DNA of 64,000 nucleotides from Streptomyces humicola (lineage in GTDB: Bacteria; Actinomycetota; Actinomycetes; Streptomycetales; Streptomycetaceae). Below are positions 2,240 through 6,853 of this stretch, one piece after another. The stretch spans positions 248,001 to 312,000 of the forward strand of contig NZ_JANFNG010000002.1 of the NCBI RefSeq assembly GCF_024436035.1, read 5' to 3'. The notes below the pieces were generated by a model, which saw nothing but the letters and a program-made list of their open reading frames with translations, searched no databases and was not told the DNA's origin. The position numbers were made by a program, and so were the translations under genes. Within the stretch, counting starts at the first letter, position 1. Every line of letters begins with the position of its first letter.

Positions 2240-2536
2240 TCAGTCGCGGCGGGCCCGCGATGGGTCGCCGTGCTGGGCCGCGATGCCGAAGCGGTGGCGT
2301 TCACCCGTGGCCGGAACGCTCTGCCGGACGGTGGAGACGGTGCTGACCACCTGCTCCTCCGCGACCTCCGCCGCCGCCTCGCCCTCCTCCAGTCGCCGCA
2401 GGTCGGCGGCGGTGACCAGGGCCACGAGAGGCTTGCCGTGACGGGTGACGACGACGCGCTCCCCGCCGTAGACCACTCGGTTGATCAGCTCGGCGAACTC
2501 GGCGCGGGCTTGTGTCACCGGGACTTCATGGGTCAT
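2240..2536 (-). CDS. Phd/YefM family antitoxin, apparently orphan
   Basis: A 98-residue antitoxin-like DNA-binding protein. The N-terminus MTHEVPVTQARAEFAELINRV followed by ERVVVTRHGKPLVALVTAADL is the classic YefM/Phd fold; the C-terminal half is variable and would bind the toxin. ATG 2536 is preferred over ATG 2545 on family length. No RelE/YoeB, Doc or PIN toxin frame follows: the next gene downstream on this strand is ureA. The gene is therefore either an orphan transcriptional regulator or the survivor of a lost toxin-antitoxin pair. A matching palindromic operator lies just upstream. Confidence 0.88.
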   Translation of the reverse strand: MTHEVPVTQARAEFAELINRVVYGGERVVVTRHGKPLVALVTAADLRRLEEGEAAAEVAEEQVVSTVSTVRQSVPATGERHRFGIAAQHGDPSRARRD

Positions 2537-2554: not shown

Positions 2555-2571
2555 ATGTACGTCCTGTACAT
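2555..2571. promoter_or_regulatory. YefM-type palindromic operator
   Basis: Perfect inverted repeat ATGTAC-gtcct-GTACAT, which contains the TGTACA core described for YefM-YoeB autoregulatory operators. It sits between the divergent antitoxin gene (start 2536) and the ClpP-like gene (start 2609), so one bound protein could affect both. Confidence 0.6.
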
Positions 2572-2608: not shown

Positions 2609-3250
2609 GTGCCAGTGACGAACCCGCCGACCGGCCGCTACGTCGTGCCGGAGTTCACCGAGCGCACGTCGCAGGGCGTGCACACCATGGACCCCTACTC
2701 CAAGCTGCTCTCCGAGCGCGTCGTCATGCTCGGCGCCCCGATCGACGACACGTCGTCCAACGACGTGATGGCGCAGCTGATCCATCTGGAGCACTCCGCG
2801 CCCGGCCAGGACATCCAGCTCTACATCAACTCGCCCGGCGGCTCGTTCACGGCCGCCTCGGCGATCTACGACACGATGCAGTTCCTCTCGTGCGACATCC
2901 AGACGGTGTGCCTGGGCCAGGCCGCCGGGTGCGCAGTGCTGCTGCTGGCCGCCGGGACACCCGGCAAGCGGCTGGCGACGCCCGGTTCACGCGTGGTGCT
3001 GCAGCAGCCCTTCATCGCCGAGCCGACGCGTGGCCAGCCGTCGGACCTGGAGATCCAGGCGGCGGAGGTCGGGCGGCAGCGCGAGACATTGGAGCGGATG
3101 CTCGCCCGTCACACGGGACGCGACATCGAAGGCGTCCACGCCGACATGGAACGGGACACGGTGCTCGACGGCCAAGGGGCGCAGGAGTACGGAATCGTGG
3201 ATCACCTCACGCGCAGCCGCAAGGCCTCGCAGCCGCGCGGCAAGGGGTGA
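2609..3250 (+). CDS. ClpP-like protein lacking catalytic Ser and His
   Basis: A 213-residue ClpP-family protein. The fold-defining segments are intact: [38 protein letters not shown], the SDLEIQAAE helix and the [18 protein letters not shown] handle. The nucleophilic Ser of GQAAS is Gly107 and the catalytic His of HQP is Gln132 (LQQP); the Asp146 position is kept. It should therefore be proteolytically inactive, comparable in principle to ClpR subunits that enter mixed rings. Start GTG 2609 has GGAGG 6 bases upstream. A 100-residue gene follows after 6 bases. A role in a hetero-oligomer with the housekeeping ClpP is inference. Confidence 0.9.
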
Positions 3251-3256
3251 GCGGGG

Positions 3257-3559
3257 GTGCTGCCGGAGCTGCCGAGGATGCCCGCGCTCACCCGGGCGGA
3301 GGGCGAGCTCGTCGACTGCTACCTGGAGGTGGCCGACCTGCTCGGCCGGGTCAACCCCGCCCGGTGCGGGGACACCTACTCGGCGCTGCGGGCGGCGCAG
3401 GCCCTGGTGGGCCGGGCCGAGGCGCTGCGGGCGGCGCTGGAGCGGATGTACGAACGCGGCGAGCGCGAGATGCACGGCGCTCCACTGCTGCGTGCGCTGC
3501 GCGTGCTCGACGGTGAGCGGCGCACCCGGCTGCCCGCGATCCCGTGCGTTCGCGATTGA
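3257..3559 (+). CDS. hypothetical protein cotranscribed with ClpP-like gene
   Basis: A 100-residue protein of unknown function starting at GTG 3257, 6 bases after the ClpP-like stop, so almost certainly cotranscribed. It is predicted helical, with an amphipathic Leu/Ala-rich core (LVDCYLEVADLLGRVN, then ALRAAQALVGRAEALRAALERMYERGEREMHG) that could form a coiled coil. No signal peptide or membrane segment. The pairing suggests it could be an adaptor or partner of the ClpP-like protein. I do not recognise the family. Confidence 0.7.
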   Translation: MLPELPRMPALTRAEGELVDCYLEVADLLGRVNPARCGDTYSALRAAQALVGRAEALRAALERMYERGEREMHGAPLLRALRVLDGERRTRLPAIPCVRD

Positions 3560-3643
3560 ATCACCCGGCAGGCCGACATCCGTACAGACCCCGCCGTGGT
3601 GCGAAGCGACTGCGCGTGTGCGCGACTGTCCCTGGAACGACAA

Positions 3644-3666
3644 GCCCCCGCCGCAGTGGCGGGGCG
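3644..3666 (+). terminator. hairpin after the ClpP-like operon
   Basis: CCCCGCC-gcagt-GGCGGGG (3646-3664), a 7-bp G+C stem with 5-base loop about 90 bases after the last stop. There is no strong U tract, as is usual in high-GC actinobacteria. It separates the ClpP-like operon from the riboswitch-controlled gene. Confidence 0.5.
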
Positions 3667-3689
3667 GTCCCGGCGGACGCCCAATCCTG

Positions 3690-3862
3690 CCGCTGCCCGG
3701 ACGACATGACGATCCGTTTGACGGCAGGAGCGGAGGACCCGCTCACGACCGGGGCCGGCCGGTGAGGCCGACCCCTTGGGGTGAAGCCGCGGAAGCGGCC
3801 GGGCATGACTTCGTCTGTCCGAACCCGACAGGCCACCCTTCGCAGGCGGACGACGAAGGGCC
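3690..3862 (+). ncRNA. c-di-AMP riboswitch (ydaO-yuaA class)
   Basis: Leader of the NlpC/P60 gene with the hallmark ydaO blocks in order: GGCAGGAGCGGAGGACCC (3723-3740), CTTGGGGTGAAGCCGC (3775-3790), TCCGAACCCGACAG (3818-3831) and a terminal AGGCGGACGACGAAGG. This class binds cyclic di-AMP and in Streptomyces commonly precedes cell-wall hydrolase genes such as rpfA. The 5' boundary is approximate. The 3' end runs into the ribosome binding site of the gene, so control of translation or of termination just before it is plausible. Confidence 0.88.
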
Positions 3863-3866
3863 GCGC

Positions 3867-4358
3867 ATGACCGCGCATCTGTACCGACCGGCTGTCCCCG
3901 CGCTGTTCACCCGCATCGGCGCGACCTCCATGCTCACCGCGGCCGCACTCGCCGGAACCTCCCTGATACCGGGAATGACCACGCGGGCCCAGGCCGACGA
4001 GACCTTGGCGATGCGCGCCTACCACATTGCGCAGTCCGAGCAGGGGGCGCCGTTCGCGTGGGGAGCGGCCGGACCCGATGCCTTCGACTGCTCGGGGTTG
4101 ACGCAGTTCGCCTACGAGCAGGCCGGCGAGGACATCCCGCGCACCGCCGAAGACCAGTACGACTACGCCGTGCACATTCGACCCGACCACCGCAGGGTCG
4201 GCGACCTGGTCTTCTTCCACTACGGCGACAGCATCTACCACGTCGGTTTCTACGCGGGACGCGGCGAAGTGCTGCACGCCCCCAAGAGCGGGGGCTTGGT
4301 GCGTCTGGAGCGGATCTGGTCGGACGACGTCTGGTACGGCCGGGTGGACGACGATTGA
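3867..4358 (+). CDS. secreted NlpC/P60 peptidoglycan hydrolase
   Basis: A 163-residue cell-wall endopeptidase. The ORF is open further upstream, but the real start is ATG 3867, with GAAGG 7 bases before it and directly after the riboswitch. Residues 1-43 are a signal peptide (hydrophobic MLTAAALAGTSLIPG, cleavage near AQA). The C-terminal NlpC/P60 domain has catalytic Cys75 in DCSGL, His125 in YHVGFY and His137. There is no separate wall-binding domain, so it is a minimal enzyme likely to cut stem peptides during growth or development. Expression is expected to respond to c-di-AMP. Confidence 0.92.
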   Translation: MTAHLYRPAVPALFTRIGATSMLTAAALAGTSLIPGMTTRAQADETLAMRAYHIAQSEQGAPFAWGAAGPDAFDCSGLTQFAYEQAGEDIPRTAEDQYDYAVHIRPDHRRVGDLVFFHYGDSIYHVGFYAGRGEVLHAPKSGGLVRLERIWSDDVWYGRVDDD

Positions 4359-4413
4359 GCGACGATTGAGCGAGGAATGAGAGACGACTGAGAAAGGTCA
4401 CTGCTGGAGGACG

Positions 4414-4842
4414 TCACCGCGCGGGGACGGCCCAGGGAAGGCTGATCCAGACCGTCTTGCCGCCTTCCTCCGTCGGGGTGACGGACATCCGGCCGCCCGA
4501 CTCGGCGGTGAGGTAACGGATGATCACCATGCCGCGGCCGTTGTCCTGCTGCACGGCCGCGGGCAGCCGCTGCGGCCAGCGCGGATGGCTGTCGGTGACC
4601 CCGATCCTCAACTGCTCGTCGCGGTCGAGGCGCAGGTCGACGGTGAAGGTGGGCGACTGCCCGAAGGTGTGCTGCACGGCGTTGGTGGCGAGCTCCGAGA
4701 CGATCAGCGCCACGGTGTCGCCGGCGGGAGCGTCGTCGGGCAGTCCCCATTCACCGAGGATTGCGGCCACGTATTTGCGAGCCGTGGTCACCGAGGCAGG
4801 GTCGCTCGGAAGGGTGACGGATGCTTCCTGATGGTCTGCCAT
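4414..4842 (-). CDS. RsbW-like ATP-binding protein (HATPase_c)
   Basis: A 142-residue GHKL-type ATPase domain protein like the many small anti-sigma-factor-like kinases of Streptomyces. The N box is IVSELATNAVQHTF, followed by the G1-like GVTDSHPRWPQRLP and the glycine-rich NGRGMVIIRYL. No histidine phosphoacceptor or membrane segment. It is divergent from a broken XRE regulator and a DUF397 remnant, the three-gene set found at whiJ/abaA-type loci. This member is the only intact one here. Confidence 0.9.
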   Translation of the reverse strand: MADHQEASVTLPSDPASVTTARKYVAAILGEWGLPDDAPAGDTVALIVSELATNAVQHTFGQSPTFTVDLRLDRDEQLRIGVTDSHPRWPQRLPAAVQQDNGRGMVIIRYLTAESGGRMSVTPTEEGGKTVWISLPWAVPAR

Positions 4843-5113
4843 GGCGACGTTGTCCCTTTTCCGCCGGCTCCGGGACTCCGGCGGTCGGCGTACCCGAGCG
4901 CTCCCGCGGACGGATATGTCAGCGGCAACCTTCCCGGAGTGCTGCTACGCACCAGAGTGCCATCCATGCTGCCGCCGAACCGGGCGATCCACCAACCTCT
5001 GCATATATCTGTCCCTCAAAGCAGTGAACTCTGCTACGGGAGACCGGATTTGCGCTGCACACTGTCGCCTTGGCGCCCGACGAGGCGTCCCGGATCCGGA
5101 GGTGACGTGGAGC

Positions 5114-5540
5114 ATGGAGCGGGGACCAGCCGTGCGCCGGCGCACACTCGGCGCGGAACTGCGCCGCCAGCGGCAGCTGGCCGGCCTGACCAGCGTCCAA
5201 GCGGCCCAGCGCGTGGGGTGGCACCAGTCGTAGGTCAGCCGGATGGAGACCGGCAGAAGCGCCGCGAACCCAGCCGATGTGATAAGGCTGTTGGCGTTGT
5301 ACGCGACGGCCGAGCCCGAACTGCGGCGTGTGCTCGGGGCACTTGCCGGGGAGCGGCGGACCGGCCGTCGTGGCTGGTGGCAACAGTACCGGGAGTTGCT
5401 CCCGCCCTCCTACCGGGACTTCATCACCCGGAGACCGACGCCTGTCGCGCCCGAACGCTGGAGACCTGCGTCGTCCCCGGCCTGTTGCGGGCCCGCCTAC
5501 GCGAGCGCGGTCACCGCCCGGGCGGCTCTGCCCCATTCCA
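5114..5540 (+). pseudogene. WhiJ-like XRE regulator (HTH + DUF5753), broken
   Basis: The helix-turn-helix begins at ATG 5114 (RTLGAELRRQRQLAGLTSVQAAQRVGWHQS) and is stopped by TAG at 5231-5233. Family members read a Lys there, before the VSRMETGRS that continues in frame, so a single AAG to TAG change explains it. The DUF5753 part then runs to PPSYRDFIT and changes frame near 5430: TLETCVVPGLLRARL is read in another phase. At least one nonsense and one frameshift lesion are present, so the gene is dead unless the HTH fragment alone acts. Confidence 0.85.
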
Positions 5541-5544
5541 GCGC

Positions 5545-5705
5545 GGCGCGAGGTGGATACAGCTGCGGCACCAACAACTGCGTCGAGACCGCCCAGCCGA
5601 GGTGGCGGATGCTCGCCGTACGCGACTCCAGGGCTCCCACCGGCCCCGCGCTACTCTTCCCCGCGGCCGAATGGCCCGGTTCGTCGGCGCGCTCCGTACG
5701 GGGCA
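5545..5705 (+). pseudogene. DUF397 protein remnant
   Basis: The frame reads GGYSCGTNNCVETAQ, then AVRDSRAPTGPALLFPAAEW, clearly a DUF397 domain (normally about 60-80 residues, small and acidic, encoded next to WhiJ-like regulators). It has no own start codon and is joined to the broken regulator upstream. Its end runs up to the convergent bioF stop. Probably non-functional. Confidence 0.78.
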
Positions 5706-5710
5706 TCCGC

Positions 5711-6853
5711 TCAGCTCCGCGGCGCCGTGCGGACGATCGTCTCGAGCGCCTCGGCGATCTGCTCGTCGGTGAGGTCCGCGCGCGCCGACAGGCGCAGCCG
5801 CGAGATCCCGTCGGGGACGGACGGCGGACGGAAGCAGCCGACCGCGACCCCTGCCGCGCGGCACTCCGCCGCCCAGTGCACCGCCGCCTCGGGCCCGGGC
5901 GCGCGCACCGACAGCACGCATGCATCGGGTGCCACGGCGTCGAGTCCGGCGTCGGTCAGCCCCCAGTGCAGGCGGTGCGCGGCCTCGCGGGCGCTCGCCG
6001 CCCGGTCGGGCTCCCGACGCAGCAGCCGCAGGCTCGCGAGCGCTCCCCCGACGACCGCGGGCGCCAGGCCGGTGTCGAAGATGAACGTCCGTGCGGAGTT
6101 GACCAGGTGTTCGATCACCGGCGCCGGGCCGAGCACGGCACCGCCCTGGCTGCCGAGCGACTTCGACAGCGTGACGGTGCAGACCAGGCCGCGCGCTCCG
6201 GCGAGCCCTGCGGCGTCGGCCGAACCGCGTCCTCCCTCGCCGAGTACGCCGAGACCGTGCGCATCGTCGACGAGCAGGGCCGCGCCCGGCTCCCGGCAGA
6301 CGGCGGCCAGCCGGGCGAGCGGGGCGCAGTCGCCGTCGACGGAGAAGACCGAGTCGGTGACGACGAGCGCGGGTCCGTCGTGCGCACCGAGCTCCTTGGC
6401 CACCGCCTCGGGATCGCGGTGCGGTACGACGGTGGTCTCGGCGCGCGAGAGCCGGCAGCCGTCGATGAGCGAGGCGTGATTGCCGGCGTCCGAGACGATC
6501 AGCGTCCCGGCGGCCGTCAGGGCCGTGACGGCGGCGAGGTTGGCCGCGTAGCCGGTGGCGAAGACCAGCGCCGCCTCGAAGCCGCAGAAGGCGGCGAGTT
6601 CGGCTTCCAGTTCGGTGTGCAGCTCGGTGGTCCCGGTGACCAGGCGCGATCCGGTGGACCCCGCGCCCCAGCGCAGCGCGGCGTCGGCGGCGGCCCGGGT
6701 GACTTCGGGGTGGTGGGCGAGACCCAGGTAGTCGTTGCTTGCGAGGTCGAGCACGTCGGCGTCAGCGGGCCGCGGGCGCAGCTCCCGTACCAGGCCGGCA
6801 CGGAGGCGGGCCGCGGCACGGTCGCCGATCCACTCGAACGGGTCGCGGGTCAT
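5711..6853 (-). CDS. bioF: 8-amino-7-oxononanoate synthase
   Basis: PLP enzyme that condenses pimeloyl-ACP/CoA with L-alanine, the first committed ring-assembly step of biotin synthesis. 380 residues from ATG 6853, which has AGGA 5 bases upstream; ATG 6859 is too close to it. Family motifs: LDLASNDYLGLAHHPEV, GSTGSRLVTGTTELHTELE, DDAHGLGVLGEGGRG and the PLP lysine in TLSKSLGSQGGAV. It is transcribed divergently from bioB across a palindrome-bearing promoter region. Downstream it converges on the dead DUF397 remnant. Confidence 0.96.
   Translation of the reverse strand: MTRDPFEWIGDRAAARLRAGLVRELRPRPADADVLDLASNDYLGLAHHPEVTRAAADAALRWGAGSTGSRLVTGTTELHTELEAELAAFCGFEAALVFATGYAANLAAVTALTAAGTLIVSDAGNHASLIDGCRLSRAETTVVPHRDPEAVAKELGAHDGPALVVTDSVFSVDGDCAPLARLAAVCREPGAALLVDDAHGLGVLGEGGRGSADAAGLAGARGLVCTVTLSKSLGSQGGAVLGPAPVIEHLVNSARTFIFDTGLAPAVVGGALASLRLLRREPDRAASAREAAHRLHWGLTDAGLDAVAPDACVLSVRAPGPEAAVHWAAECRAAGVAVGCFRPPSVPDGISRLRLSARADLTDEQIAEALETIVRTAPRS

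Follow-up and report, generated by a model that had tools for sequence, protein, structure and literature searches.

Can a ClpP protein that has lost two of its three catalytic residues still have work to do? The question is raised by a gene at 2609..3250 on the plus strand of a 64,000-nucleotide stretch of Streptomyces humicola DNA (the window), which encodes a ClpP2-type protein of 213 amino acids from a GTG start. Alignment with relatives places Gly107 (codon GGG, 2927..2929) at the catalytic Ser position and Gln132 (codon CAG, 3002..3004) at the catalytic His position, with the triad Asp kept (Asp183, codon GAC, 3155..3157, all on the plus strand); the three residues align with positions 97, 122 and 171 of E. 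coli ClpP. The protein lacks the Ser-His-Asp set of an active peptidase. A preliminary description of this DNA had reported both replacements and the retained Asp, together with a ClpP reading frame at 2609-3250 and, after a gap of 6 nt, a reading frame for a 100-residue protein at 3257-3559, and the present analysis agrees on every one of these points. The most familiar inactive ClpP homologues are the ClpR class found in cyanobacteria, plastids and apicoplasts; in Streptomyces, Clp proteases matter for development and for ADEP antibiotics.

The encoded protein matches the CLP_protease family profile PF00574 at 208.7 bits (cut-off 20.2) and NF009205 at 246.7 (cut-off 228). Its structure model (pLDDT 77.7) finds its closest solved structures in M. 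tuberculosis ClpP2, with a TM score of about 0.8 and an E-value of 1.9e-26. Identity is 61% to the ClpP2 of its own genome and 42% to the ClpP1, and the nearest relatives among the sequences compared are actinobacterial ClpP2 proteins. Three ClpP genes are present in the S. humicola genome (7.07 Mb): the clpP1-clpP2 operon, both of whose products have a complete Ser-His-Asp triad, and the gene in the window. Streptomycetes mostly carry three or five ClpP proteins, described as P1P2, P3P4 and P5, with clpP5 called "monocistronic" (PMC9765437). The orthologue group of the gene in the window is very probably Streptomyces ClpP5, the third clpP locus of S. lividans, to which it is matched by description and gene counts; we use the name ClpP5 because the ClpP counts fit this published three-or-five pattern. 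Whereas the S. lividans gene is described as monocistronic, clpP5 in the window is followed by the gene for the 100-residue protein (below, small). We came across no ClpP5 literature that describes triad loss or the partner.

The main set for comparison consists of 84 loci bearing the partner gene (L038, L148-L229 and the window). Two have no clpP5 (L177, L199), leaving 82 clpP5 loci, and in two others it has decayed (L187, L198), leaving 80 full-length clpP5 genes. Where flanks are readable, the order is urease genes, a phd gene, clpP5, small, a C40 peptidase gene, a gene for an SspH-like ATPase and biotin genes, with insertions in some loci; the neighbourhood is annotated in plasmid record NZ_CP139046, and SspH/SCO1241 is covered in PMC9137472. 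For L148 and L149, the records that carry the urease-clpP5-biotin block are labelled as linear plasmids (NZ_CP139046 and NZ_CP081497; 0.58 and 2.8 Mb). Elsewhere in the window, at 5081-5800, an HTH/DUF397 pair that is intact in relatives has been ruined: a stop codon interrupts the HTH gene in frame, and a deletion fuses it to a DUF397 remnant.

The triad reads Ser-His-Asp in 45 of the 80 full-length ClpP5 proteins and is broken in 35, in more than 20 residue combinations; since the loci were chosen non-randomly from best matches and include near-duplicates (L149/L165, L148/L194), these fractions are not population frequencies. Among 79 separately fetched control loci of the ClpP2 type, the triad is changed in one (L096). 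On a ClpP5 tree computed with the triad columns removed, two-state reconstruction gives 9 triad changes (8-10 across bootstraps, at least 4 of them forced by well-supported branches), and the best tree requires 13 losses when regain is disallowed. With four dead and very diverged copies from three more genera (L261-L264) included, the count is 12 losses and the window gene falls inside a larger clade of dead copies (98/97), subject to a long-branch warning. Judged from the sequences, the triad appears to have been lost in about 12-13 independent events.

The window's own clade (support 98/99) spans three genera and includes L150, L151, L152 and L153, with AEA, SEV, SDA and SEA as triad residues; the His is absent from all members. 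A sequencing slip or a mutation of a single strain is ruled out by this His loss, common to relatives from two other genera, and a pseudogene by the absence of stops and frameshifts in the window gene and by dN/dS below 1 against relatives. The preliminary description had asked whether the loss is conserved among orthologues, and would have taken orthologues with an intact triad to mean that this copy is just a mutant. Loss of the His is shared throughout the window's clade, and 45 orthologues have Ser-His-Asp. Intact orthologues are thus plentiful, but the conclusion attached to them fails, because the loss is common to a well-supported clade and recurs, some 12-13 times by the estimate above, in reading frames that are mostly under selection.

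One member of this clade, L150 (genome G006), is probably ClpP3 of S. cattleya DSM 46488 (SCATT_03550). Co-expression of S. cattleya ClpP3 and ClpX in E. coli reportedly shortened the half-life of RelB2 (PMC4989188). If the two are the same protein, it is triad-less and cannot itself cut RelB2, and the simpler account would be overexpressed ClpX acting together with the ClpP of the host.

One explanation of the dead copies is that ClpP5 is redundant and on its way out under relaxed selection, the triad going first and truncation or deletion following, with the dead copies unused. Nei-Gojobori dN/dS over chosen pairs is 0.16-0.45 for broken ClpP5, 0.12-0.29 for intact ClpP5 and 0.08-0.35 for the partner, and the rise in broken over intact copies (p = 0.002, on hand-picked pairs) is what such decay would produce. 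So are the casualties: L187 has a frame-broken clpP5 and a stop in the partner gene, L198 has an internally deleted relic, clpP5 is gone from L177, L199 and L237 (where phd, the operator-like element described below and small are still there, as they are beside the L198 relic), the L261-L264 copies are very diverged, and a sister genome, another genome of the window's genus, has no phd-clpP5-small module. Yet all 35 broken copies are still full-length reading frames, their dN/dS is well under 1, broken clades hold several genera, the core of the operator-like element is almost constant, and it is the catalytic residues that vary while structural ones are kept. Because the triad itself separates the intact from the dead group, the informative columns are the remaining ones. 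There the ring-forming residues are retained (E. coli numbering): Glu141, Arg144 and Arg146 in 35 of 35 broken copies and Arg170 in 33 of 35; both glycines of SPGG are kept as well. The dead copies are somewhat relaxed yet non-neutral, and most are under purifying selection. In the window copy the triad is gone and the reading frame is under selection, as would be expected of a ClpR-type protein. We regard decay as a somewhat unlikely explanation; both it and the toxin-antitoxin-like reading discussed below are live rivals, as minority lineages have lost ClpP5 or its partner.

The partner gene (3257..3559, plus strand, GTG start) lies 6 nt after clpP5 and encodes a predicted three-helix bundle, with helices at residues 13-30, 37-68 and 75-94. 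Searches of Pfam, NCBIfam and PDB found no relative (the top Foldseek match has E 0.67, the top PDB profile match 0.98). The partner gene is 72-82% identical between the window and its nearest relatives in two other genera, and occurs in 250 of 396 Streptomycetaceae genomes. It follows clpP5 on the same strand at a gap of 4-9 nt in all 82 main-set clpP5 loci, so the expectation that it always follows clpP5 is borne out there; it breaks down in L261 and L262, which have phd and clpP5 and no small. Because each has been found lost alone, clpP5 and small are individually dispensable in some species. The preliminary description had proposed that the small protein is an adaptor for ClpP5. This is not established: the protein matches no known family and persists in four genomes without a complete clpP5. 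A known adaptor of the MecA, ClpS or NblA type, or a known toxin, is rejected, there being neither profile nor fold match, and a strictly ClpP5-dependent adaptor is weakened by persistence of the gene in L177, L199 and L237 without clpP5 and in L198 with a relic. Relatives of the 100-residue protein also occur in another family (L230-L232), with no clpP or phd adjacent and with LysR and acetyltransferase-like genes nearby.

Two further features, a divergent phd gene and an operator-like element, add to the preliminary account. The gene at 2240..2536 on the minus strand encodes a 98-residue antitoxin-type protein of the Phd/YefM family (PF02604, 1.4e-13, 50.8 bits against a cut-off of 29.8) and is transcribed away from clpP5. 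No toxin gene lies between ureA and phd, or beside phd, in the window, and in most loci phd faces clpP5 in the same toxin-less arrangement. The N-terminal domain of Phd is nearly invariant across loci, while the C-terminus, the usual toxin-binding part, shows little conservation outside one short motif.

Between phd and clpP5 lies the element TGTACGTCCTGTACA (2556..2570, plus strand), its sole exact match in the genome. The core TGTACRTCCTGTACA, followed by a run of T, is exact in 78 of 82 loci, 24-158 nt from the clpP5 start, and has no match in the other 770 kb of these loci. YefM operators have TGTACA as their core (PMC7730913); the clpP5 element differs from the paired-TGTACA operator of yefM-yoeB in its spacing, 9 bp centre to centre rather than 12 bp. 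Five genomes have phd at a distance of about 7-50 kb, and in these the element remains at clpP5 with none at phd. Because the element does not follow the relocated gene, Phd as the binder of TGTACRTCCTGTACA is only a guess. A wider TGTACRTCCTGTACA regulon is unsupported, with one exact genomic site and 47 degenerate sites against 32 in a reversed control, not far above background. In L253-L256 the relocated phd is preceded by a different, similar-looking stretch (CTGGTCCACCGTGG...GTCCAGGTCAG), perhaps the site of another regulator. In L236 (G103 C27, about 3300-5650) a second cluster of phd, a hydrolase gene, a clpP with intact triad and small carries the same TGTACGTCCTGTACA element outside the urease-biotin locus.

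A Phd-family protein beside a small protein brings to mind a toxin-antitoxin-like pair, in which Phd would be antitoxin and repressor, the 100-residue protein its partner or effector, and ClpP5 an accessory that tunes repressor turnover and is therefore expendable. There is no other toxin beside Phd, the phd-operator-small arrangement survives without clpP5 (L177, L199, L237) or with a relic of it (L198), and the Phd of P1 is cited in PMC4963847 as a ClpXP substrate. The two genes also co-occur: both are present in 56 genomes, phd alone in 2, small alone in 2 and neither in 61, counts that are uncorrected for phylogeny. On the other hand, the small protein is unlike any toxin in profile or fold, phd is sometimes far from small, two genomes have phd and clpP5 without small, and the Phd C-terminus is, bar its one motif, poorly conserved. 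We consider this pairing unlikely. A third possibility gives the ClpP fold a new use outside the Clp protease, for instance as corepressor or scaffold of Phd and small, with no ring role. This would suit the missing pocket residue 82 in several broken clades and the recurrent linkage with a DNA-binding protein in several genera, but is very improbable given that about half of the orthologues are triad-complete and all of these have both aromatic docking residues (45/45), an indication of descent from a Clp-ring subunit and of a ring role still kept.

This aromatic docking pair (62/82) is also present in 24 of 35 dead copies, including every member of the window's clade; in the window protein the two residues are Tyr and Phe. 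ATPase docking cannot be general to broken ClpP5, since 11 of the 35 lack an aromatic pocket residue. In the ClpP1P2 core of Streptomyces, catalysis comes from ClpP1 and ATPase docking from ClpP2; in S. hawaiiensis, ClpP1P2 with ClpP2-S131A is fully active, and the pocket mutations S94/Y96/Y116 of ClpP2 abolish ATPase-dependent degradation (all PMC9765437). A paralogue of the ClpP2 type is therefore able to function after losing its triad, and this would account for a gene that survives while its catalytic site is lost again and again.

The reading we favour, at a probability of roughly 0.5, is that clpP5 encodes a non-catalytic ring subunit of the ClpP2 type in a Phd-switched operon, docking the ATPase while ClpP1 cuts, together with its three-helix partner. 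ClpP5 would form a ring with active ClpP1, with or without ClpP2; it would supply the docking face for ClpX or ClpC and leave cutting to ClpP1, so that its own active site could be dispensed with. The operon would be switched at TGTACRTCCTGTACA by the divergent Phd/YefM-type repressor, and the three-helix protein, presumably co-translated, may assemble or steer the ClpP5 ring or may fill the toxin slot on Phd. That most broken copies are intact reading frames with a fixed partner, a repressor-like gene and the element suggests a ring part with a non-cutting job. The ClpR-like structural or regulatory subunit of the preliminary description is still the best reading, the triad being lost and the reading frames mostly selected.

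More tentatively, and with some doubt, phd, operator, clpP5 and small might form a novel regulatory module in Streptomycetaceae, with a repressor of the Phd type governing both a ring subunit that is not proteolytic and a new three-helix protein. Dead subunits swapped into the core would reroute or brake Clp-ATPase traffic, and the catalytic site would have gone many times over, since only assembly and docking would matter. With loss repeated in one bacterial family and dead orthologues occurring next to intact ones, ClpP5 offers a natural experiment on the role of a ClpP that does not cut. A paralogue with almost no literature also gains a partner gene that can be tested and an operator-like site of its own.

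Several known systems resemble this locus in part. Streptomyces ClpP2 shares with ClpP5 its fold, 61% identity and the docking positions, and the hetero-14-mer can do without the catalytic Ser of ClpP2 (PMC9765437); ClpP2 differs in that its triad is kept nearly everywhere and its gene lies beside clpP1, whereas ClpP5 loses the triad repeatedly beside phd and the partner gene. The yefM-yoeB and phd-doc systems have a repressor of the Phd/YefM fold and a TGTACA-containing operator (PMC7730913), while the clpP5 locus is toxin-less and divergent, has the 9-bp rather than the 12-bp spacing, and has a clpP as its presumed target. ClpP-ADEP of S. hawaiiensis is likewise an extra ClpP, which remodels ClpP1P2 and forms complexes with ClpP2 (PMC12607617), but unlike ClpP5 it is ClpP1-like, catalytically used and linked to an antibiotic cluster. 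The ClpR proteins of cyanobacteria, plastids and apicoplasts are also triad-less ClpP homologues, and mix with ClpP in cores (PMC7966870). ClpR, however, is described as a stable inactive class, while ClpP5 is ClpP2-like, has lost its triad in many separate lineages beside intact orthologues, and is linked to phd and small.
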